Of a stretch of 64,000 bases of DNA, positions 12,841 through 62,770 are shown piece after piece (within the stretch, counting starts at the first letter, position 1; every line of letters begins with the position of its first letter). A program made the position numbers and the translations under genes. The DNA is from a bacterium. GTDB taxonomy: Bacteria > Myxococcota_A > Bradymonadia > UBA7976 > UBA1532. The stretch is taken from the NCBI GenBank assembly GCA_030426085.1, contig JAUHYW010000019.1:62001-126000 (forward strand), written 5' to 3'. Below the pieces are notes generated by a model, which was given only the letters and a program-made list of their open reading frames with translations, was not told the DNA's origin and made no database searches.

Positions 12841-15800
12841 TCAGGGGCTGATCACCGCCCCGTTGGCGATCATGTAGGCCATCAGGGCGCGGCTGACGTC
12901 GTTGAAGTCGTCCTCCGAGTCCTGCCAGTCGGCCTCGACCAGCCACAGCCGCCCGGCGCCGACGTCGATGTAGGCCAGCGAGACCGAGTTGGGGTCCCAG
13001 CCGCCGAGCGGCACGATGTCGGGGAACCCGGAGACGCTGTAGCCGCAGCCGGTCCGGCCGGCGATCGGGCGGAAGATGTTGTCCTGCCAGAACTGGTCCT
13101 GAGGGTTGAACTGCACCGCCGGCTGCACGTTGTCGCTGCAGTCGCCGTTGCGCGCGCCCTGGGCGACGTTGGCCTGGAGCAGCGTATTGTAGATGCGGTG
13201 GCTGATGTTGTACTCGGTCAGCACCACTCCGCCGTTGTTGACGTAATCCCGCATCGCGTCGCCCAGCGCCTCGAAGGCGTTGACCCCGCCCCGGGGCACC
13301 AGGATGGCCTGCACGTCGTCCCCCGGCTCGCAGACCCCGGCCTCGACCCGGATGTCGGCGTCGACGAGCTGCCCCTGGATGAACTCGTTGACGTCGCGTC
13401 GGGCGTTGCCGCAGGTCCGCACGATCTCCCGCAGCTCGCCGCAGCGCCCGTCGGTGCACTCGACGCCCTCGCTGCACGCCCGCCCGCAGCGGCCGCAGTG
13501 CAACGGGTTGTCCCGCAGCGGCACGCAGGCGCCGTCGCAGAAGCCCCAGCCGTCCTGCTCGCAGACGTCGCCCGCCGCGGCGCAGCCGTCGTCGTCGGGC
13601 CAGTCGGTGAGGCCGTCCTCGTCGTCGTCGAGCGCGTTGGCGCACAGCGGCAGCTCGGGCAGGTCCTCTTCGTCGTTGTCCCGGGCGTTCTCGCAGCCGA
13701 TGTCGATCAGGTCGATCAGCCCGTCATCGTCGTTGTCCCGCCCGTCGGCGCAGCGGGGGGGCAGCGCGCCTTCGCTCTGCTCGACCGGGTCGGCGGCGAA
13801 GCGGCAGCCGGGGTCGTCGGGCCAGTCGAAGCGGCCGTTGTTGTCGTCGTCCCGCTCGTTGGCGCATTGGGGGGCGAAGTTGGGGTCGGTCTCGTCGTCG
13901 TCGCCGGCGAATTCGCAGCCCGGCTCCCGGGGGAAGTCGGTGATGCCGTCGCCGTCGTCGTCGGCGCCGTTGCTGCACGCCGCGGCCGGATCGGGCTCGT
14001 CCTCGTCGTCGTCGCCGGCCGCCGAGCAGCCGGGCTCGATGGGGAAGTCCACCAGCCCGTCGCGGTCGTCGTCGATGCCGTTGGCGCACTCGGGCAGCGG
14101 GTCGTCGTTCTGCTCGCTGAGGTCGCCCGGCGCGGCGCAGCCGGGGTCGAGCGGGTAGTCGTTGAGGCCGTCGTCGTCGTCGTCGATGCGGTTGTTGCAG
14201 ATCGGGCGCCGGGCGGACTCCTCGTCGGGGTCGCCGGCCGCCGAGCAGCCCTCGTCGAGCGGGTAGTCGACCAGGCCGTCCTCGTCGTCGTCCTCACCGT
14301 TGGCGCAGGCGGGCAGCACGTCGGGGTCGGTCTCGTCGGCCCCGCCCTTGCTGGCGCAGCCGGGGTCGAGCGGGTAGTCGGCCCACCCGTCGCCATCGTC
14401 GTCCTCGCCGTTGAAGCACACCGCCGCGACCTCGGGGTCGCGCTCGTCCTCGTCGTCGAGATCGGCGCAGCCGGGGTCGTCGCCGTCGATGAAGCCGTCC
14501 TGGTCGTTGTCGACCTCGTCCCGGCAGCCGGGCGGCAGCCGCTCGACCTCGACCGAGAGCTTGAACGGGCCTCCGAGGCCGAAGGGGTGGTCGACGATGA
14601 CGAAGAGATCACCCGGCGGCGCCCGCTCGATCGTCACCGTGCCCTTGTCGACCCGCCCCTGCTGGTTGGGGGCCGGGCTGCAGCCCAGCTCGGTGCCCGC
14701 GGCGGCGCATTGGGTGCGCACGTAGAGCACCGTCTGGCCGGTCGTCTCCTCGTGGTCGGTGCTGAAGACCAGCCGGGTATTGAACGGGTTCTGGTAGACG
14801 AAGACCTTCTCGGTCGCGGTGTTGCCCCCACAGCTCCCACCGAAGAGCCGGGTGCCGCCGACCGAGGTGTCGTCGATGATGAACGGCTCGCCGACCGGGT
14901 AGTCGTAGACCGCCACCCCCTGCCCGCACAGGTCGACCTCGTCGCCGTCGGCCGCCGCCCGGCAGCCGGCGTCGAGCGGGTAGTCGACGAGCCCGTCGCC
15001 GTCGTTGTCCAGATCGTCGGCGCATTGGGGCATCACGTCGGGGTCGGCCTCGTCGCGGTCGTCGCGGTCGTCGCAGCCGGGGTCGACCGGGTAGTCGACC
15101 CGGCCGTCCTCGTCATCGTCGGCCCCGTTGCGGCAGGCGGCCGGGGGCACCAGCTCGATGAGCACCTCGAAGTCGCCGCCCCGCCCGTTCGCCCCGTCGA
15201 GGAAGACGTAGTAGGTGCCCGGCGCCGGGTCTTCGAGGATCAGCTCGTTGGCCGCGACGCCGTCTTCGAGCGGCTCGCGGGCGCAGGCCAGCTCGCTGCC
15301 GCCGTCGGTGCAGCCCCGGCGCACGTACAGCGCCGTCTCGAGGTCGTTGCCCGGCAGATCGGTCGTGACCCGCAGCGCGTCGGCGAGGCCGTCGACCCGC
15401 ACGAGGAAGACCGCCTCGGGGGCGCCCCGGCCGCCGCAGGTGCCCTCCTGAGCGAAGGGGTTGCCCCGGGTCGTGCCCCGGATCACCCGCCCCGGGCGGA
15501 CCTCGATCGCGTCGTAGCCCCGCCCGCACGACCCGCGCTCGCTGGCGTCGGCCGCCGCCTCGCAGCCGGGGTCCTCGGGGAAGTCGATGGTGTCGTCGCG
15601 GTCGTTGTCCACCCCGTCGGCGCATTGGGGCGCCACCATGGGGTCGGCCTCGTCGCCGTCGCCGAAGCCGGCGCAGCCCGGATCGGCGGGGTAGTCCACC
15701 CGCCCGTCGCCGTCGTCGTCGAGCCCGTTGGCGCAGAACGGCGGGGTCGGCCGGTCGGCCTCGTCCTCGTCGCCGGCCGCGCTGCAGCCGGGGTCGAGCG

Positions 15801-16431
15801 GGAAGTCCACGATGCCGTCGTCGTCGTCGTCGAGCCGGTTGGAGCAGCCGGGGGGCACCTCGGCGTCGGTCTCCCGGGGGTCGGCCGGGCTGGAGCAGCC
15901 GGGGTCGGCGAGGTCGACCCGCCCGTCGCCGTCGTTGTCGAGGCCGTCGCCGCATTGGGGCAGCGCGGGCCCGACCTCGTTGACCTCGTCGTCGTCCATC
16001 TCGGACCCGCAGCCGGGGTCGGCGGGGAAGTCGACGAAGCCGTCGTCATCGTCGTCGACGCCGTTCTGGCAAGCGGGCAGCGGGGGCTCGTCGGACTCGT
16101 CGTCGTCGGCGGCGTTGGCGCAGCCCCGATCGGCGAGGTCGATGTCGCCGTCGCCGTCGTCATCCACCTCGTTGCGGCATTGGGGCAGCGGGTCGTCGGA
16201 CTCGTCGTCGTCACCGGGATCGGCGCAGCCGGGGTCGTCGCCGTCGGTCAGCCCGTCCCCGTCGTTGTCCTCACCGTCGTCGCACTGCGGCGACAGCACG
16301 AGCACGTCGGGCTCGAAGCTGCCGTCGACGGTGGCGTCGGCCTCGTCATCGGCGCCGTCGTCGGAATCGGGCGTGCACCCGGCCACGGCCAGCCCGGTCA
16401 ACATCGCCAGCAAGATCAATCGTTCGCGCAT
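12841..16431 (-). CDS. Giant Asp/Cys-rich repeat lipoprotein
   Basis: A 1,196-residue surface lipoprotein. The ATG at 16431 is followed by a signal with lipobox AVAGC, and AGGAG lies nine bases upstream. The body has 18 copies of a repeat of about 36 residues with the pattern C-x5-DxDxDG-x4-D-x4-PGC-x5-D-x-x-E. This Asp-loop style resembles thrombospondin type 3 and other calcium-binding repeats. After repeats 7 and 9 there are two beta-sandwich domains of about 110 residues that resemble PPC domains (each near an LFGGSCGG or CGGRGAPE stretch). A Cys cluster (CDGACVPLRDNPLHCGRCG) follows repeat 18. The last 230 residues form a Rossmann/amidotransferase-like domain (GGVVLTEYN) of unknown role. 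It is probably an adhesive or structural outer-surface protein needing calcium. Binding is inferred from the Asp pattern. Confidence 0.85.
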   Translation of the reverse strand: MRERLILLAMLTGLAVAGCTPDSDDGADDEADATVDGSFEPDVLVLSPQCDDGEDNDGDGLTDGDDPGCADPGDDDESDDPLPQCRNEVDDDGDGDIDLADRGCANAADDDESDEPPLPACQNGVDDDDDGFVDFPADPGCGSEMDDDEVNEVGPALPQCGDGLDNDGDGRVDLADPGCSSPADPRETDAEVPPGCSNRLDDDDDGIVDFPLDPGCSAAGDEDEADRPTPPFCANGLDDDGDGRVDYPADPGCAGFGDGDEADPMVAPQCADGVDNDRDDTIDFPEDPGCEAAADASERGSCGRGYDAIEVRPGRVIRGTTRGNPFAQEGTCGGRGAPEAVFLVRVDGLADALRVTTDLPGNDLETALYVRRGCTDGGSELACAREPLEDGVAANELILEDPAPGTYYVFLDGANGRGGDFEVLIELVPPAACRNGADDDEDGRVDYPVDPGCDDRDDRDEADPDVMPQCADDLDNDGDGLVDYPLDAGCRAAADGDEVDLCGQGVAVYDYPVGEPFIIDDTSVGGTRLFGGSCGGNTATEKVFVYQNPFNTRLVFSTDHEETTGQTVLYVRTQCAAAGTELGCSPAPNQQGRVDKGTVTIERAPPGDLFVIVDHPFGLGGPFKLSVEVERLPPGCRDEVDNDQDGFIDGDDPGCADLDDEDERDPEVAAVCFNGEDDDGDGWADYPLDPGCASKGGADETDPDVLPACANGEDDDEDGLVDYPLDEGCSAAGDPDEESARRPICNNRIDDDDDGLNDYPLDPGCAAPGDLSEQNDDPLPECANGIDDDRDGLVDFPIEPGCSAAGDDDEDEPDPAAACSNGADDDGDGITDFPREPGCEFAGDDDETDPNFAPQCANERDDDNNGRFDWPDDPGCRFAADPVEQSEGALPPRCADGRDNDDDGLIDLIDIGCENARDNDEEDLPELPLCANALDDDEDGLTDWPDDDGCAAAGDVCEQDGWGFCDGACVPLRDNPLHCGRCGRACSEGVECTDGRCGELREIVRTCGNARRDVNEFIQGQLVDADIRVEAGVCEPGDDVQAILVPRGGVNAFEALGDAMRDYVNNGGVVLTEYNISHRIYNTLLQANVAQGARNGDCSDNVQPAVQFNPQDQFWQDNIFRPIAGRTGCGYSVSGFPDIVPLGGWDPNSVSLAYIDVGAGRLWLVEADWQDSEDDFNDVSRALMAYMIANGAVISP
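13555..16290 (-). repeat. Coding tandem repeats, 18 units of about 108 bp
   Basis: These are the 18 Asp-rich protein repeats of the large lipoprotein gene, interrupted twice by other domains (around 14540-14930 and 15140-15520). At DNA level they show as dense GTC/GTCGTC runs on the plus strand. The copies differ at many third positions, so they are old or diversified and not recent expansions. Confidence 0.85.
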
Positions 16432-24471: not shown

Positions 24472-26955
<2,484 letters not shown>

Positions 26956-36658: not shown

Positions 36659-37117
36659 TTGATCCGACTCGCCACCATCGCCCTGGTGCTGGGCTGCGCG
36701 GCGCCGGCCGTCGCGGCCGACGTCGGCACCTGCCTCACCGAGGCCGGCCTGCGGCTCGCGCCGTGGACCGATCCGGTCGATCCGGCGTGCGGCGAGGACT
36801 GCGGGATCGAGGACGAGGCCGAGCCGCTCGACGGGCTGTGCAGCACCGACGACGGCACCTGCGGGGCCGACGAGCTGGCCGCGGCGCTCGAGATGCCCGA
36901 GCCGTCGGGCCCCCGCTGCATCGAACCGGGCCCGGCGTGCCAGTCGGGCCACTCCACCCACGGCGGCGTGGCCAGCGGGGTCATCGCCCTGCCCGCCCCG
37001 CCGCTCGAGTCCCCCGCCCCCCGCGGCGGCACGCTGCCCGGCGCCGGCCCTCCGATCGCCGACGCCCGGCCCTGGGATCGCACCTTCGCGCCCAGCCCGC
37101 CACCGCCCCGGGCCTGA
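36659..37117 (+). CDS. Small Cys-containing exported protein
   Basis: A 152-residue protein. With the TTG at 36659 it begins directly with a signal peptide (IRLATIALVLGCAAPAVAA, cut near AVAA). The mature region holds about eight Cys and many Pro and Asp, with no family I recognise, and probably forms disulfides outside the cell. A start at GTG 36614 would add 15 residues with no signal character and would precede the predicted transcript start, so I prefer TTG; both are possible. The next gene encodes four thiol-disulfide oxidoreductase domains, which could act on such proteins; that is inference. Confidence 0.6.
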   Translation: MIRLATIALVLGCAAPAVAADVGTCLTEAGLRLAPWTDPVDPACGEDCGIEDEAEPLDGLCSTDDGTCGADELAAALEMPEPSGPRCIEPGPACQSGHSTHGGVASGVIALPAPPLESPAPRGGTLPGAGPPIADARPWDRTFAPSPPPPRA

Positions 37118-37291: not shown

Positions 37292-39943
37292 ATGGTGGAT
37301 CTGGACAAGAATTCCAACAACAACAGCGGCGGCGGCGGCATGAGCAAAGAGGTGGTCATCCTCGGGCTCATCGTCATCGGCGCCGCGGCCTTCTTCATCG
37401 GCCGGGCGAGCAGCGACAAGGACGGGGAGTCCTCCAAGGCCGAGGTCGAGGCGACCGCCGAGGTCGAGACCGAGACCGCCCGGGACGACGCGGCCCCGGC
37501 GACGAACGACAGCGACATCCTGCCGGTCGGCAGCAGCTACGCGATGGGCCCGGCGACCGCGCCGGTGACCATCATCGAGTTCAGCGAGTTCCAGTGCCCC
37601 TTCTGCAAGCGCGTCGGCCCGACGCTCGACCAGATCAAGAAGGAGTACGGGGACAAGGTCCGCATCGTCTTCAAGCACAACCCGCTGAGCTTCCACAAAG
37701 ACGCGCCCTACGCCGCCAAGGCGTCGCTCGCCGCCGGCAAGCAGGGCAAGTTCTGGGAGATGCACGACAAGCTCTTCGAGAACCAGCGGCAGATCAAAGA
37801 GGACGACATCAAGGGCTACGCCAAGGAGATCGGCCTCGACATGGCGCAGTTCGAGAAGGACGTCGCCAGCGACGAGATCGCCAAGATGGTCGCCGATGAC
37901 CAGGCGCTCGCCGGCAAGGTCGGCGCCCGGGGCACCCCCAACTTCTTCATCAACGGCGAGCAGCTCAGCGGCGCCCAGCCCTTCGACCGCTTCAAGGCGG
38001 TCATCGACAAGCAGCTCGCCGAGGCCGAGGCGGCCGTCAAGGCCGGCACCAAGGCCGAGGCGGTCTACGCTGCCCAGGTGAAGAAGAACTTCAAGGAGCC
38101 CAAGAAGGCCGCGCCCCGCAAGGCCGCCGCCGACGACAAGACCGTCTACAAGGTCCCCGTCGGCAGCTCGCCGGGCATGGGCGGCAGCGAGCCGCTCGTG
38201 ACCATCATCGAGTTCAGCGAGTTCCAGTGCCCCTTCTGCAAGCGGGTCCTGCCGACCCTCGAGCAGCTCAAGAAGGACTACGGGGACAAGATCCGGGTCG
38301 TCTTCAAGCACAACCCGCTGCCGTTCCACAAGGACGCCGAGCCCGCCGCCCGGGCCGCGATCGCCGCCGGCATGCAGGGCAAGTTCTGGGAGATGCACGA
38401 CAAGCTCTTCCAGGACACCAAGGCCCTCAAGGCCGAGAACCTCGAGCAGTACGCCAAGGAGCTCGGCCTCGACATGACGAAGTTCAAGGCCGACATGGAG
38501 TCGGACGCGGCCAAGAAGCAGATCAAGGATGATCAGGCCATCGCCAGCCAGTTCGGCGCCCGGGGCACCCCCAACTTCTTCATCAACGGCCGCAAGCTGA
38601 CCGGCGCCCGCCCGGTCAGCGCCTTCAAGTCGGTCATCGACGAGGAGATCAAGAAGGCCGAGGCGCTCGTCGCCAAGGGCACCCCCCGGGGCAAGGTCTA
38701 CGCGGAGCTGACCAAGAACGGCGCCACCAAGGCCGCCGCCCCGGCTCCCCGCAAGCGGCAGCCCGCCGCTGACGACAAGACCGTCTACAAGGTCCCCGTC
38801 GACGACCTCGACTTCGCCAAGGGCCCGGCCGACGCGCTGGTCACCATCATCGAGTACAGCGAGTTCCAGTGCCCCTTCTGCAAGCGCGTCCTGCCGACGA
38901 TGAAGCAGATCGAGGAGAAGTACGGCAAGGACGTGCGGGTCGTCTTCAAGCACAACCCGCTGCCGTTCCACAAGGACGCCCCCCTGGCCTCGCAGGCGGC
39001 CATCGCCGCCGGTAAGCAGGGCAAGTTCTGGGAGATGCACGACAAGCTGTTCGAGAACCAGAAGGCCCTCAAGCCGGACAACATCGACCAGTACGCCAAG
39101 GACATCGGCCTCGACATGACCCGGTTCAAGGCCGACCTCGAGGACTCGGCGGTCAAGGCCGCCATCGCCGCCGACCAGAAGCTCGCCGGCCAGATCGGCG
39201 CCCGGGGCACCCCCAACTTCTTCATCAACGGCCGCAAGCTGACCGGCGCCCAGCCGTTCAACAGCTTCCAGAAGGTCATCGACGAAGAGCTCGCCAAGGC
39301 CAAGGCGCTCGTCGCCAAGGGCACCCCCCGGGCCAAGGTCTACGAGGAGACCATCAAGAACGGCGCCACCAAGCCCGCCGCCAACCCCCGCGCCCAGCGC
39401 CCGCAGGAGGACCCCAACAAGGTCTACGAGGTGCCGGTCAACCCGGGCGACGCGATCAAGGGCCCGGCCAACGCCAAGGTCACCATCGTCGAGTTCAGCG
39501 AGTTCCAGTGCCCCTTCTGCAAGCGGGTCAACCCGACGATGGACCAGATCGTCAAGGAGTACGGCAAGGACGTGCGCATCGTCTTCAAGCACAACCCGCT
39601 GAGCTTCCACAAGGACGCGCCCTACGCCTCGCAGGCGGCCCTCGCCGCCGGCAAGCAGGGCAAGTTCTGGGAGATGCACGACATGCTCTTCGAGAACCAG
39701 CGGCAGCTCAAGCCGGAGGACATCGAGAAGTACGCCCAGGAGCTCGGCCTGAACATGGCCAAGTTCAAGGCCGACGCGGAGAGCGACGCGATCAAGAAGC
39801 AGATCGCCGCCGACCAGGCCCTCGCCGGCAAGGTGGGCGCCCGGGGCACCCCGACGTTCTTCATCAACGGCAAGAAGCTGCGCGGGGCCCAGCCCTACCC
39901 CCGCTTCAAGGAGATGATCGACGCGGCGCTCGGCAAGAAGTGA
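37292..39943 (+). CDS. Membrane-anchored protein with four tandem DsbA-like domains
   Basis: An 883-residue protein. The N-terminus is Asn/Gly-rich, then one membrane helix (about 25-42, VVILGLIVIGAAAFFIG) and an acidic linker. Four thioredoxin-fold domains of the DsbA/DsbG-like subfamily follow, each with a CPFC active site at Cys102, 313, 527 and 740 and a later GTPxFFING cis-Pro loop. Spacing between active sites is 211-214 residues, so the units are near-identical repeats. Orientation places all four domains outside the cytoplasm. Single-domain DsbA-like proteins of about 200 residues oxidise or isomerise disulfides; four linked copies are unusual. Lys-rich linkers with Ala/Pro separate them. 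Two Cys-rich secreted protein families nearby offer plausible clients. Start is ATG 37292; earlier codons lack coding character. Confidence 0.92.
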   Translation: MVDLDKNSNNNSGGGGMSKEVVILGLIVIGAAAFFIGRASSDKDGESSKAEVEATAEVETETARDDAAPATNDSDILPVGSSYAMGPATAPVTIIEFSEFQCPFCKRVGPTLDQIKKEYGDKVRIVFKHNPLSFHKDAPYAAKASLAAGKQGKFWEMHDKLFENQRQIKEDDIKGYAKEIGLDMAQFEKDVASDEIAKMVADDQALAGKVGARGTPNFFINGEQLSGAQPFDRFKAVIDKQLAEAEAAVKAGTKAEAVYAAQVKKNFKEPKKAAPRKAAADDKTVYKVPVGSSPGMGGSEPLVTIIEFSEFQCPFCKRVLPTLEQLKKDYGDKIRVVFKHNPLPFHKDAEPAARAAIAAGMQGKFWEMHDKLFQDTKALKAENLEQYAKELGLDMTKFKADMESDAAKKQIKDDQAIASQFGARGTPNFFINGRKLTGARPVSAFKSVIDEEIKKAEALVAKGTPRGKVYAELTKNGATKAAAPAPRKRQPAADDKTVYKVPVDDLDFAKGPADALVTIIEYSEFQCPFCKRVLPTMKQIEEKYGKDVRVVFKHNPLPFHKDAPLASQAAIAAGKQGKFWEMHDKLFENQKALKPDNIDQYAKDIGLDMTRFKADLEDSAVKAAIAADQKLAGQIGARGTPNFFINGRKLTGAQPFNSFQKVIDEELAKAKALVAKGTPRAKVYEETIKNGATKPAANPRAQRPQEDPNKVYEVPVNPGDAIKGPANAKVTIVEFSEFQCPFCKRVNPTMDQIVKEYGKDVRIVFKHNPLSFHKDAPYASQAALAAGKQGKFWEMHDMLFENQRQLKPEDIEKYAQELGLNMAKFKADAESDAIKKQIAADQALAGKVGARGTPTFFINGKKLRGAQPYPRFKEMIDAALGKK
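37560..39940 (+). repeat. Four tandem repeats of about 636 bp inside the DsbA-like gene
   Basis: The four domain units run at about 37560-38090, 38200-38750, 38840-39400 and 39470-39940. They share long blocks around CPFCKR, FKHNPL, GKQGKFWEMHD and GTPxFFING, at DNA level too, so they may still be homogenised by recombination or be a fairly recent expansion. Confidence 0.8.
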
Positions 39944-40069: not shown

Positions 40070-40684
40070 ATGGATCCGAACTCCGATCAGCCCCGCCCCG
40101 ATCGCACGCCCGAGGTGCCCCCCGCGCGCCAGCCCATGCAGTGGGCGGTGCTCGCCGGGGCCCTGGTGGTGCTCGTCGGCCTGCTCACCGCCCACCTCGG
40201 CCGCCCGGACCACGAGCGGGCCCTGCCCCTGGTGGGCGCTTTCGGGGCCCAGCTCCTCGACGCGCCGGCCCCCGACATCGTGGTGCAGGATCGGGCGGGC
40301 CAGCCCATCCGGCTCAGCGACCTGCGGGGCAAGGTGGTCTTCGTGAACTTCTGGGCGACCTGGTGCCCGCCGTGTCGGGCCGAGATCCCCGACCTCGAAG
40401 AGCTGGCCGAGAAGATGCGGCACGTGCCGTTCGAGATCTTCGCGGTGAGCTCCGACGAGTCGTGGGCCGAGATCGACCAGTTCTTCGGGGGCAAGGAGAG
40501 CCGCATGCTCATCGGCCTCGACCCGAACAAGCAGGCCATCGCGGCGACCTACGGCACCGAGAAGCTGCCCGAGACCTACGTCGTCGACCGCGACGGGCGG
40601 CTGCGGCTGCGCTTCATCAACGCCCAGCCGTGGGCCGACGAGCGCATCCACCGCTACCTCGAGTGGCTCGCCACGACCCGCTGA
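40070..40684 (+). CDS. TlpA/ResA-like membrane thioredoxin
   Basis: A 204-residue thiol-disulfide oxidoreductase. A single helix near residues 22-43 (WAVLAGALVVLVGLLTAHL) anchors it in the membrane. The AhpC/TSA-redoxin fold follows, with FWATWCPPC active site (Cys99 and Cys102) and a cis-Pro in the LPETYVVD stretch. Such proteins are reductases that keep cytochrome c or other Cys pairs reduced outside the cytoplasm. It lies 126 bases after the DsbA-like repeat gene; the two redox proteins could act in a pathway. The next gene follows after 13 bases. Confidence 0.9.
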   Translation: MDPNSDQPRPDRTPEVPPARQPMQWAVLAGALVVLVGLLTAHLGRPDHERALPLVGAFGAQLLDAPAPDIVVQDRAGQPIRLSDLRGKVVFVNFWATWCPPCRAEIPDLEELAEKMRHVPFEIFAVSSDESWAEIDQFFGGKESRMLIGLDPNKQAIAATYGTEKLPETYVVDRDGRLRLRFINAQPWADERIHRYLEWLATTR

Positions 40685-50984: not shown

Positions 50985-55651
<4,667 letters not shown>

Positions 55652-60086: not shown

Positions 60087-61874
60087 CTATCGCTCGTCCA
60101 CCTCGCCGTCGCAGTCGTTGTCGACCCCGTCCCCTGACGCCTCGGTCGGCGCGCGGGGCACCGGGCCCGCCCCCAGGTCGACCAGGCAGATCGCCCCCTC
60201 TCCGGCGCACCCGCACTCGCCCGCCCGCCCCTGGTTGTCGAGGCAGCCCTCACCGAGCGGCAGATCCTCGTCGACCACCCCGTCGCAGTCGTCGTCGACG
60301 TCGTTGCACTGCTCGGGCGGATCTTCGACCTCGACGCTGCACAGCGTGCCCCCGCCGCCGGCCTCGCAGATGAACACCCCGCTCAGGCGGCACCCGTCGT
60401 CGAGCACCACCGCGCAGGGGTCGCCGAGGCGGGCGTAGCCGTTGTCGACCTCGCCGTCGCAGTCGTCGTCGAGGCCGTTGCACGCCTCCTCGACCGGCCG
60501 GATCTCGCCGACGCACGGCTCGAGCGCGCCGTCCACACACAGCCGCACACCGAACGCGCACTCGCCGACGTCGGTCAGCCCGCACGGCTCGCTGTAGCTG
60601 CCCGGCACGCCGGTGCCGTCGGCCTCGTCCACCGTCTCGTCGCAGTCGTCGTCGGTGCCGTCGCAGGTCTCGTCCCGGGCGAGGGTCGCGCCGATGCAGG
60701 CGCCCCACAGGCCGTCGATGCAGCGCTCCGACCCGGCCACGCAGCGCCCGGTGTTCGAGCCGCAGGGCCGATCGAACTGATCGGGGGTGCCGTCGCAGTC
60801 GTCGTCCCGCCCGTTGCACACCTCGCTGATGGCCCCCTGCCCGCCCTCGCACGCGCCCCAGCGGGCGTCCACGCACCGCTCGACGCCCTCTCGGCACTCG
60901 CCCGTGTCGCTGCCGCAGGCCTGGGCGAGCGGCTCGCCGGGCGCGCCCTCGTCGACCCCGCCGTCGCAGTCGTCGTCGACCCCGTTGCACACCTCTTCGC
61001 CCGGCGGCTGGGGCACCGCGTTGCAGCTCACCCCGTCCTGGGTGCCGTTGCAGATGGTCATGCCGCTGCTCTGGCAGGCCCCGACGCCGGCGGTGCAGGC
61101 CATGCCGGTGCCGAAGTCCTCGTCGACCGCGCCGTCGCAGTCGTCGTCCCGCCGATCGCAGACCTCGGCCTGGGGCTGCCCGGGGGTCGCCGAGCACTGC
61201 ACCCGGCCCTCGAAGCACACCGTCACCCCGGTCACCGCGCAGACCCCCTGCCCGTCGGAGCACGGCTGACCGAGCCGCTCGGCGAAGCCCTCGTCGATCT
61301 CGCCGTCGCAGTCGTTGTCCACCCGATCGCCGCAGACCTCGTCCGAGGGCGCGCCTGGCTCGACCAGCGCCCCGTCGACCACGCACACCCGCCGCCGCTC
61401 GCGGATCTCGACGCGGCCGTCGGACCGGCACTGCCCCACGCCGGTGAAGCACGGCGCGCCGGCCCGGCAGCTCTCGTCCACCGCGCCGTCGCAGTCGTCG
61501 TCCAGCGTATTGCACGCCTCGTCCGCCGGGGGGCCCGGATCGGCCGAGCACAAGAGCCCCCGGGGGCTCGCCGCCAGCAGCCCCTCGCGGGCGCAGAGCC
61601 CGAGGCCGGCGATACACGGCTGCCCGGCCTCGCAGCCCTCGTCGGCCACCCCGTCGCAGTCGTCGTCGCGGGTGTTGCAGACCTCGGCGGCGTCCTCGCA
61701 CTGCGCGAGCAGCGCCGGATCGACCTCCACGCACTCCCCCGACTGGCAGAGCTGACGCTCACCGCAGGGGTTGCCCGGGCCGCAGACCGCGGGGAAGGAA
61801 TCGCAGCCGACCAGCGCCAGCAGCGCGAGCAGCGCCCCGACCATCGGGCCGGAGCGCGCGGAGGCGCGCATCAT
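60087..61874 (-). CDS. MopE-like Cys/Asp-rich lipoprotein
   Basis: A 595-residue lipoprotein: signal with LLALLALVGC, then an N-terminal Cys module (CGPGNPCGERQLCQSGEC). Ten MopE-type motifs C-x-x-[RDV]DDDCDG-x3-DE follow, separated by Cys-rich segments such as GACEGGQG. There is no C-terminal sorting signal, so lipid is its anchor. The ATG at 61874 lies in the TGATG overlap with the preceding stop, implying coupled translation with the periplasmic repeat protein. It is one of three MopE-like proteins in the window. Confidence 0.85.
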   Translation of the reverse strand: MMRASARSGPMVGALLALLALVGCDSFPAVCGPGNPCGERQLCQSGECVEVDPALLAQCEDAAEVCNTRDDDCDGVADEGCEAGQPCIAGLGLCAREGLLAASPRGLLCSADPGPPADEACNTLDDDCDGAVDESCRAGAPCFTGVGQCRSDGRVEIRERRRVCVVDGALVEPGAPSDEVCGDRVDNDCDGEIDEGFAERLGQPCSDGQGVCAVTGVTVCFEGRVQCSATPGQPQAEVCDRRDDDCDGAVDEDFGTGMACTAGVGACQSSGMTICNGTQDGVSCNAVPQPPGEEVCNGVDDDCDGGVDEGAPGEPLAQACGSDTGECREGVERCVDARWGACEGGQGAISEVCNGRDDDCDGTPDQFDRPCGSNTGRCVAGSERCIDGLWGACIGATLARDETCDGTDDDCDETVDEADGTGVPGSYSEPCGLTDVGECAFGVRLCVDGALEPCVGEIRPVEEACNGLDDDCDGEVDNGYARLGDPCAVVLDDGCRLSGVFICEAGGGGTLCSVEVEDPPEQCNDVDDDCDGVVDEDLPLGEGCLDNQGRAGECGCAGEGAICLVDLGAGPVPRAPTEASGDGVDNDCDGEVDER

Positions 61875-62770
61875 CAGAACCGCCCCTGCCACCAGACCGC
61901 CGCCCCGCCGGGCATCGCCCCCGGCACCAGGGCCGTCGACTCCTCGGGCGCGTCGGCGGCGAGATACAGGATGGCGCCGGTGAGCAGCAGCGCCGCCCCC
62001 GCCCCGCCGACGATCAGCGCCGACTCGCCGAAGTCGTCCTTGCGCTGCCGATTGCGGGTCTGCTCCCGGGCGGCGTCGGCCACCCCGTCGGGATCGGTCA
62101 CCGGATCGGCCTCGGACAGCGCCGCGTCGGCCATCGCCCAGCGGACCCCGAAGTAGCCCCCCGCGGCGAGGCCCACCGCCCCGGCCCCGATGAGGTAGCC
62201 GCCCACCGTCGCCAGCCCCGACGGCGCGGACGGCGGCGGGGCGACGCCCTCGCAGCGCAGGCTCAGATCACCCCCGGCCATCGCCGGCACCGTCACCTGC
62301 CAGTACAGCCCTTCCAGGCGGGGCTCGAGCCGCTCGCCGCGCAGGGTCACCACCGGCTCGGGGCACACGTTGGCCTGGGGCAGCGCCAGCTCAACCGGGC
62401 CGGCCTCGGTCTTCTCCCGCATGCGGGAGACGATGCCCCACGACTCGGTCAGCGGCTCGATGTAGATCGACTCGCCCGCGCCCCGCTCGGCCATCAACGA
62501 GATGAAGGTCAGCGCGGCCTGCATCGCCTCCTTCGGCTGGCCGGCCGCCTCGTAGCTGCGGGCCATGTGGAACCGGAAGATGGGCTCCTGCTTGGCCGCC
62601 CAGGCCTGCTCGAGGAAGCGGACCGCGCCCTCGTAGTCCCCCGCCTTGTAGGCCGCCCGGGCCTGCTTGTAAGCCGCCTCGGCCTGATCGACCTGCGCCG
62701 CGGCGGGGCCGGCGAGCAGCGGCAGGCACAGCGCCAGCCAGACCAGCGGGCGTCGGGTGGGTCGGGTCAA
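61874..62770 (-). CDS. Exported TPR-like protein with two C-terminal helices
   Basis: A 298-residue protein. TTG 62770 was chosen because GAGGAG lies seven bases upstream and a signal peptide follows directly (LVWLALCLPLLAGPAAA). A helical repeat region with TPR character (AAYKQARAAYKAGDYEGAVRFLEQA) spans about 25-95. A beta-rich part with two Cys follows, then two membrane-like helices (VGGYLIGAGAVGLAAGGYF and ALIVGGAGAALLLTGAILYL). This tail layout is common in myxobacterial PEGA/TPR envelope proteins. The protein may scaffold the MopE-like lipoprotein encoded in the overlapping gene. Confidence 0.78.
   Translation of the reverse strand: MTRPTRRPLVWLALCLPLLAGPAAAQVDQAEAAYKQARAAYKAGDYEGAVRFLEQAWAAKQEPIFRFHMARSYEAAGQPKEAMQAALTFISLMAERGAGESIYIEPLTESWGIVSRMREKTEAGPVELALPQANVCPEPVVTLRGERLEPRLEGLYWQVTVPAMAGGDLSLRCEGVAPPPSAPSGLATVGGYLIGAGAVGLAAGGYFGVRWAMADAALSEADPVTDPDGVADAAREQTRNRQRKDDFGESALIVGGAGAALLLTGAILYLAADAPEESTALVPGAMPGGAAVWWQGRF

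Follow-up and report, generated by a model that had tools for sequence, protein, structure and literature searches.

Eukaryotic protein disulfide isomerase (PDI; domain order a-b-b'-a') is an isomerase with several thioredoxin-fold domains per chain, some of them catalytic and some not. The available part of PMC7687155 gives the same domain order also for ERp57. The trimeric isomerases of bacteria, namely the ScsC proteins of Proteus and Caulobacter, Wolbachia alpha-DsbA2 and Salmonella BcfH, are homotrimers of single-unit chains that associate via an N-terminal helical region, and the accessible sections of PMC6450060 state that an isomerase of high activity requires two or more catalytic domains. 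Four tandem DsbA-like domains are known from UGGT, in which they are not catalytic (PMC8024514, PMC7687155 and PMC4255179, in the sections available). Here we describe a gene (the array gene) for a predicted membrane-anchored protein with four DsbA-like units in tandem, located in a 64,000-nt stretch of DNA (the window; positions 62,001 to 126,000 of contig JAUHYW010000019.1, assembly GCA_030426085.1) from a bacterium of the Myxococcota (class Bradymonadia). It resembles the trimeric isomerases in fold, in its GT-cisPro motif and in having several catalytic domains, but differs in that units of such arrays are joined covalently, two to seven per chain, and carry a membrane anchor; PDI differs from it in having the thioredoxin rather than the DsbA fold, two active sites and a location in the endoplasmic reticulum. 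By all sequence criteria the array is real, conserved and catalytic, and represents a covalent multi-site, sometimes multi-selenocysteine, version of DsbA/ScsC-type foldases.

The features of the array gene are listed in Table 1. A Shine-Dalgarno-like AAAGGA lies immediately 5' of its ATG. The whole protein matched the Pfam models Thioredoxin_4 (PF13462, 371 bits, cut-off 23.2) and DSBA (PF01323, 355 bits, cut-off 25.6) over four stretches each (E-values 8e-112 and 1.1e-106), which places it in the DsbA superfamily. The four tandem units, each with a CPFC site and a GTPxFFING loop, had been read from the DNA in a first-pass annotation and were confirmed at the same residues by translation and by Pfam. 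CxxC, cis-Pro and an inserted helical domain were present in each unit, both in the sequence and in an AlphaFold2 model, and all four units are probably catalytic, complete DsbA folds. We infer that the protein is anchored in the inner membrane by residues ~20–38, the sole candidate hydrophobic stretch. Its eight Cys residues all fall within the four CPFC pairs, leaving none for a lipobox.

Table 1. Features of the array gene and of other genes in the window
Feature	Window position	Strand	Remarks
Array gene	37292..39943	+	883-aa product, predicted membrane-anchored; four DsbA-like units in tandem
N-terminal hydrophobic anchor, ~residues 20-38	37349..37405	+	Sequence reading; orientation putative
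Unit 1, Thioredoxin_4 match	37535..38011	+	100.1 bits (contig coordinates C54:99535-100011)
Unit 2, Thioredoxin_4 match	38174..38644	+	93.6 bits
Unit 3, Thioredoxin_4 match	38819..39286	+	96.2 bits
Unit 4, Thioredoxin_4 match	39443..39925	+	100.2 bits
CPFC, unit 1, residues 102-105	37595..37606	+	Translation; C102 and C105 invariant in four-unit alignment
CPFC, unit 2, residues 313-316	38228..38239	+	Translation and alignment
CPFC, unit 3, residues 527-530	38870..38881	+	Translation and alignment
CPFC, unit 4, residues 740-743	39509..39520	+	Translation and alignment
cis-Pro loop GTP, unit 1, residues 214-216	37931..37939	+	Translation and alignment; GTPxFFING starts at 214
cis-Pro loop GTP, unit 2, residues 425-427	38564..38572	+	Translation and alignment; GTPxFFING starts at 425
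cis-Pro loop GTP, unit 3, residues 639-641	39206..39214	+	Translation and alignment; GTPxFFING starts at 639
cis-Pro loop GTP, unit 4, residues 852-854	39845..39853	+	Translation and alignment; GTPxFFING starts at 852
TlpA/ResA-like membrane-anchored thiol reductase, CPPC	40070..40684	+	Next gene 3' of the array
Very Cys-rich exported-looking protein	12841-16431	-	57 Cys
Very Cys-rich exported-looking protein	24472-26955	-	72 Cys
Very Cys-rich exported-looking protein	53153-55537	-	79 Cys
Very Cys-rich exported-looking protein	60087-61844	-	61 Cys

At the DNA level the gene contains four 300-nt repeat copies spaced by 633, 642 and 639 nt, which raises the question of whether the array might be an assembly artefact or a chance repeat, particularly as the host assembly consists of 178 contigs. 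The first-pass annotation had proposed aligning the four units and looking for the CPFC pairs in relatives. Unit-to-unit identity was 57–69 % in protein, 71–80 % in DNA and 71–81 % at third codon positions, so that the units lie 20–29 % apart in DNA; judged from this divergence, the repeats are old copies and not duplicated reads. Family f1, that of the window genome, was represented by 13 genomes, each assembled independently. The four-unit open reading frame (ORF) was whole in 10 of them and broken by a contig end in two; the remaining genome (G004) gave matches of single-unit strength only. The four-unit proteins of these relatives were 62–90 % identical, and in 20 aligned four-unit proteins (45–90 % identity to the window protein) all eight Cys (102, 105, 313, 316, 527, 530, 740 and 743) and the four cis-Pro residues (216, 427, 641 and 854) were invariant. 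When 141 units were placed in a quick tree, many of whose deeper branches were unsettled, units of the window family clustered by position (unit 1, seven rows, support 96; unit 3, eight rows, 98; unit 4, nine rows, 93), indicating that the array predates the genera. Array frames of three-unit size were also present in three single-contig genomes (G020, G041 and G047). A misassembly with one-unit relatives, the outcome that the annotation had named as speaking against the array, was thus not what was found, same-family genomes being mostly four-unit, and we regard an artefact as practically excluded.

The best-scoring named family for each window unit was NCBIfam NF041057 (Rcas_1661 family thioredoxin-like (seleno)lipoprotein), whose members are single-unit lipoproteins with one selenocysteine (Sec); the relatives of the array likewise have Sec or Cys at the same active-site position. 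Membership was rejected, as the units scored 113.9, 97.1, 119.6 and 116.7 bits against a cut-off of 190 bits, the 448 bits of the whole protein were reached only by adding four units, and the lipobox Cys was absent.

The distribution of such arrays was investigated in further loci with Myxococcota names, or with older or unplaced names of metagenome-assembled genomes that fell among these in the tree where tested. Uncut ORFs from 79 loci contained three units (53 ORFs), four (22), seven (one), two (four) or one (three). A non-redundant set (loci L038–L125 and L159–L170 plus the window, some taken in because of a UGA codon) comprised 107 arrays with two (10), three (69), four (26), five (one) or seven (one) units, the sole five-unit array, L047, being broken by a contig end. 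A hydrophobic N-terminal segment was found in 92 of the 107. Their 343 units carried CPFC (279), CPYC (32), UPFC (12), UPYC (seven), CPFS (four) or other or unread motifs (nine), and 337 of them had GTP at the cis-Pro position. Every one of 169 sampled Myxococcota genomes gave some match; the best E-values were bimodal, and 89 genomes were array-like, defined as a best E-value beyond 1e-79, a threshold placed in the gap of the bimodal list. Arrays were present in 23 and absent from 18 of the 41 families sampled, and only f1 and f6 were mixed, by one genome each. Since arrays sort in this way by family, they are inherited with the clade, and their architecture is by this distribution ordinary within the Myxococcota and clade-consistent. 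The first-pass annotation had described the family as normally single-domain; the tandem units stand, but three or four units are usual in this phylum and are no oddity of one genome.

In the quick tree, units 5, 6 and 7 of the seven-unit protein (L046) grouped with units 1, 3 and 4, respectively, and this protein looks like the product of a block duplication. In one single-contig genome (L122, G047:C1:3626500-3636500) three array frames lay adjacent to each other, giving nine DsbA units in ~7 kb. Beyond the Myxococcota, the best 40 of 4100 records in a plasmid search were nearly all single-unit-sized places. A 502-aa protein with a CPFS unit, a CPVC unit and a degenerate third was encoded on plasmid pACIX901 of Granulicella tundricola (Acidobacteriota; L172:2935-4443), and tandem DsbA units are therefore not claimed to be restricted to the Myxococcota.

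Active sites were also variable between the units of one chain. Two of the three units in L064 (5334-7373) and in L069 (256-2316) had CPFS instead of CPFC; the CPFS units of L064 have additional Cys elsewhere in the unit. In six loci (L024, L029, L030, L033, L079 and L105) the first of four units lacked a proper CxxC; the corresponding motifs in L029, L030, L079 and L105 were TPAT, TPGM, SEGL and APAT, and such units are suggestive of PDI b domains.

In some relatives, unexpectedly, Sec took the place of the first Cys. A four-unit array from Baikal-deep-G131 (L104:10262-12211) had TGA at this position in units 1 and 4 and TGC in units 2 and 3, and its genome encoded a full-length SelA (E-value 3.8e-141) and a tRNA-Sec (71.9 bits, above the gathering score). 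The pattern D[FY][QE]-U-P-[FY]-C gave 28 matches in 20 of 377 genomes of the phylum, against one for a reversed control, and at all 28 loci a UPFC or UPYC unit lay inside a DsbA-like frame. Two array genes in G223 (L159 and L160) had three Sec units each; further arrays read U,U,C (G193), U,U (G170) and U,C,C (G297), and pairs of array genes read U,U in G243 and U,C,C in G157. With L104 included there were 10 Sec-bearing arrays, seven with at least two Sec and two with three; the remaining pattern loci were single Sec units. As the loci were picked by the UGA pattern, these counts give no prevalence among arrays. In L160 and L163 the stretch with the Sec array also contained an independent DsbA-like gene of one unit, the motif of which was CRFC or CIYC. 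Of the 20 pattern genomes, 19 had SelA (the exception being G297), as did 14 of 20 pattern-negative genomes; its presence permits a Sec reading but does not prove it. In the window genome itself a SelA-like gene (G000:C155:31793-32833) scored only 183 bits, compared with 301–475 bits in the other positive genomes.

In the DNA downstream of the codon, mean folding energy was −14.7 at 34 distinct UGA sites and −10.0 at 385 Cys sites; shuffle z-values were −2.07 over all 34 UGA sites and −0.26 over 120 of the Cys sites drawn at random. A fixed eight-pair stem with a GGUC tip formed on average 6.7 of its eight pairs at UGA sites compared with 4.1 at Cys sites, and GGTC stood at the hairpin tip in 30 of the 34 UGA sites, four lacking it, but in only four of the 385 Cys sites. 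Among units that all encode VGPT[LIF], glycine was specified by GGT in every one of 26 Sec units but in two of 14 Cys units; this bias at equal peptide indicates that synonymous sites are constrained. With an in-frame UGA at the redox Cys, a hairpin resembling a Sec insertion sequence (SECIS) and Sec machinery, these arrays of relatives qualify, at the level of sequence, as selenoproteins. In L104 units 1 and 4 were almost identical over the stretch following the UGA, although each clustered by position with Cys units from other proteins; this likeness could be accounted for by transfer of the SECIS segment from one unit to another or by strong constraint.

Sec in a DsbA-like protein of this phylum is not in itself new, since one DsbA-like selenoprotein is listed for the myxobacterium Anaeromyxobacter in the available part of PMC1794560. 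Sec-containing DsbA-like and DsbG-like proteins are also known from an inventory of 119 families (PMC13188914), where, in the sections covered, each of these entries has one Sec and the sole family with three is an arsenite methyltransferase/AhpD protein. The prokaryotic multi-Sec proteins described there, with two to three Sec, likewise have more than one UGA-encoded Sec per chain, but belong to families other than the DsbA arrays.

AlphaFold2 modelled the window protein as four confident DsbA folds, with a mean predicted local distance difference test score (pLDDT) of 84 and a predicted template-modelling score of 0.37. Low-confidence linkers fell at residues 273–281, 485–489 and 698–705, and packing between the units may be flexible. 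The nearest solved structures by Z, a comparison that tests mainly unit 4, were 3gyk (24.9), Wolbachia alpha-DsbA2 (23.4), Caulobacter ScsC (23.0) and Proteus ScsC (22.5), followed by BdbD (22.4), StScsC (22.2) and BcfH (21.2); the classical DsbAs scored ~16–17. The top solved match in Foldseek was UGGT, whose tandem DsbA-like domains accounted for 814 aligned columns; among the PDB entries listed, no long tandem match appeared other than that to its four domains TRXL1-4. Together with the first units that lack CxxC in L029, L030, L079 and L105, this could suggest a binding device in which the units recognize misfolded protein and redox chemistry is secondary. The TM-scores of the UGGT entries were low (0.10–0.21), however, and the CxxC and cis-Pro of all four units show no variation in window-type proteins, whereas the domains of UGGT lack CXXC, TRX3 lacks the cis-Pro loop (PMC4255179, in the part available) and TRXL1 and TRXL4 are rearranged (PMC7687155, likewise in part). 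UGGT is moreover non-catalytic and fused to a glucosyltransferase; no glycosyltransferase domain was found in the Pfam scan of the window protein, the chain of which ends after unit 4. UGGT gave no sequence match in the PDB or Pfam results and was not among the best 50 VIA-align entries. The likeness is limited to fold and tandem order, homology was rejected, and a UGGT-like function seems very improbable.

In the accessible sections of PMC6450060 the five isomerases compared all have GTcP whilst monomeric oxidases are variable; those of PMC8900818 assign isomerase activity to the ScsC trimer and not to monomeric StScsC, and give Thr-cisPro for CcScsC. All four window units have the GT-cisPro of the trimeric isomerases, and the several catalytic domains that PMC6450060, as far as available, associates with isomerase activity are provided by tandem linkage instead of oligomerization. 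Because of the likeness to trimeric isomerases, the common GT-cisPro and the multiple catalytic domains, we favour, with modest confidence, an isomerase/reductase rather than an oxidase, in the form of a periplasmic, membrane-tethered single chain with several active sites. The Sec that relatives carry at the attacking position fits a nucleophilic, reducing role. In such a protein the first Cys (or Sec) of each unit would attack a substrate disulfide, and the covalent array would stand in for the trimerization of ScsC and alpha-DsbA2, in that a single client could be reached by more than one active site. After one unit had opened an incorrect disulfide, the same unit or a neighbour could re-form it correctly, reduction being the limiting case, and differences in active site among the units would serve to tune the array. 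The membrane would be the source of reducing power, supplied by DsbD/CcdA-type proteins in genomes that have them and perhaps also by the neighbouring TlpA-like protein, and net oxidation would be left to a separate VKOR-DsbA fusion of the window genome.

Several observations weigh against the isomerase/reductase assignment. BdbD, which is among the close folds, is an oxidase. CPFC/CPYC-like motifs are found in oxidases too, and the CxxC sequence itself is not discriminating according to the available text of PMC6450060. The helical oligomerization domain of the ScsC/DsbA2 isomerases was not seen in the window protein, the model of which gave residues 1–71, including the likely transmembrane helix, a pLDDT below 50 and no helix; the relative placement of the units was also not fixed by the model. 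Ten of 55 relatives lacked DsbD_TM, though all ten match the array protein, VKOR was missing from 16, and array units did not scale with MopE-type Cys-rich repeats (see below). A universal redox partner was rejected: DsbB (found in one of the 55 relatives), VKOR (39) and DsbD_TM (45) are each absent from some, and one genome, G052, was alone in lacking both VKOR and DsbD_TM.

VKOR, which had two matches in the window genome, as did DsbD_TM, bears equally on an alternative in which the array is a string of DsbA oxidases recharged by VKOR, giving a high local oxidizing capacity for Cys-rich exports at the membrane. The DsbA/Thioredoxin_4 fold and the four Cys-rich proteins of the window would suit such a role. 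The scarcity of DsbB and the gaps in VKOR argue against it, as do the isomerase-kind GT-cisPro in nearly all units, Sec at the attacking position in relatives and the lack of positive scaling with MopE repeats, and we consider it unlikely. A 397-aa frame on contig C5 of the window genome, with VKOR and DsbA unit matches, is a candidate dedicated oxidase.

The first-pass annotation had suggested that a tether with four active sites could process numerous Cys-rich clients. Four such proteins are indeed encoded in the window; MopE repeats occur in three of them and acidic double-disulfide repeats in the fourth. Across 55 genomes, however, the number of Thioredoxin_4 domains was negatively correlated with that of MopE repeats (Spearman −0.38 to −0.39, p 0.003–0.004), and nothing significant was found within families f1, f3, f4 and f6. 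The idea that arrays are due to client number was not supported; as MopE matches saturate near 118 in many genomes and MopE was the sole client type counted, this is one failed scaling test and no disproof. Hundreds of MopE-like candidates (931 in a first look) were present in the window genome.

A third possibility is that DsbG- or ScsC-like units reduce sulfenylated or misoxidized Cys, or bind Cu(I) under copper stress, with the copies serving capacity. NF041057, the nearest NCBIfam model, is a DsbG-like selenoprotein family in the covered sections of PMC13188914, ScsC folds ranked near the top by Z and ScsC binds Cu(I) (PMC8900818, available part). The CPFS units of L064 and L069 also agree with repair, and so do TlpA-like and glutaredoxin-like neighbours. 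In a neighbour survey with a simple gene caller, whose counts are rough because the array gene itself went uncalled at 16 of 61 loci, the TlpA/ResA-like cluster occurred at 17 of the 61 array loci, immediately downstream of the array in nine, and a glutaredoxin-like protein of 72–92 aa at 15. No conserved copper gene stood beside the arrays among the neighbour clusters read, and reduction or repair leaves the several units per chain without explanation; this possibility is rated as distinctly unlikely. Directly upstream of the array (window 36659-37117) lies a gene for a small protein with eight Cys, one homologue of which (cluster c55) is encoded at the corresponding position in L039.

Searches of open-access papers, which took in neither subscription journals nor preprints, turned up no account of bacterial tandem DsbA arrays or of DsbA chains with several Sec. 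We tentatively propose that the Myxococcota possess a class of single-chain multi-site foldases, with chemistry set per unit (CPFC dithiol, UPFC/UPYC selenenyl-thiol, CPFS monothiol or dead), which would be a covalent bacterial counterpart of PDI and include the first multi-Sec DsbA chains, with up to three Sec, each with its own SECIS within the repeat that encodes it, and SECIS segments possibly copied between units. Standard gene calling splits Sec arrays at UGA, which should be borne in mind in their annotation. If the proposal is true, bacteria too would have made multi-active-site foldases by covalent repetition and not by oligomerization, across much of one phylum, and the natural spread in unit number and chemistry (sulfur, selenium, monothiol and dead) would provide a series for testing the need for active sites and the contribution of selenium.

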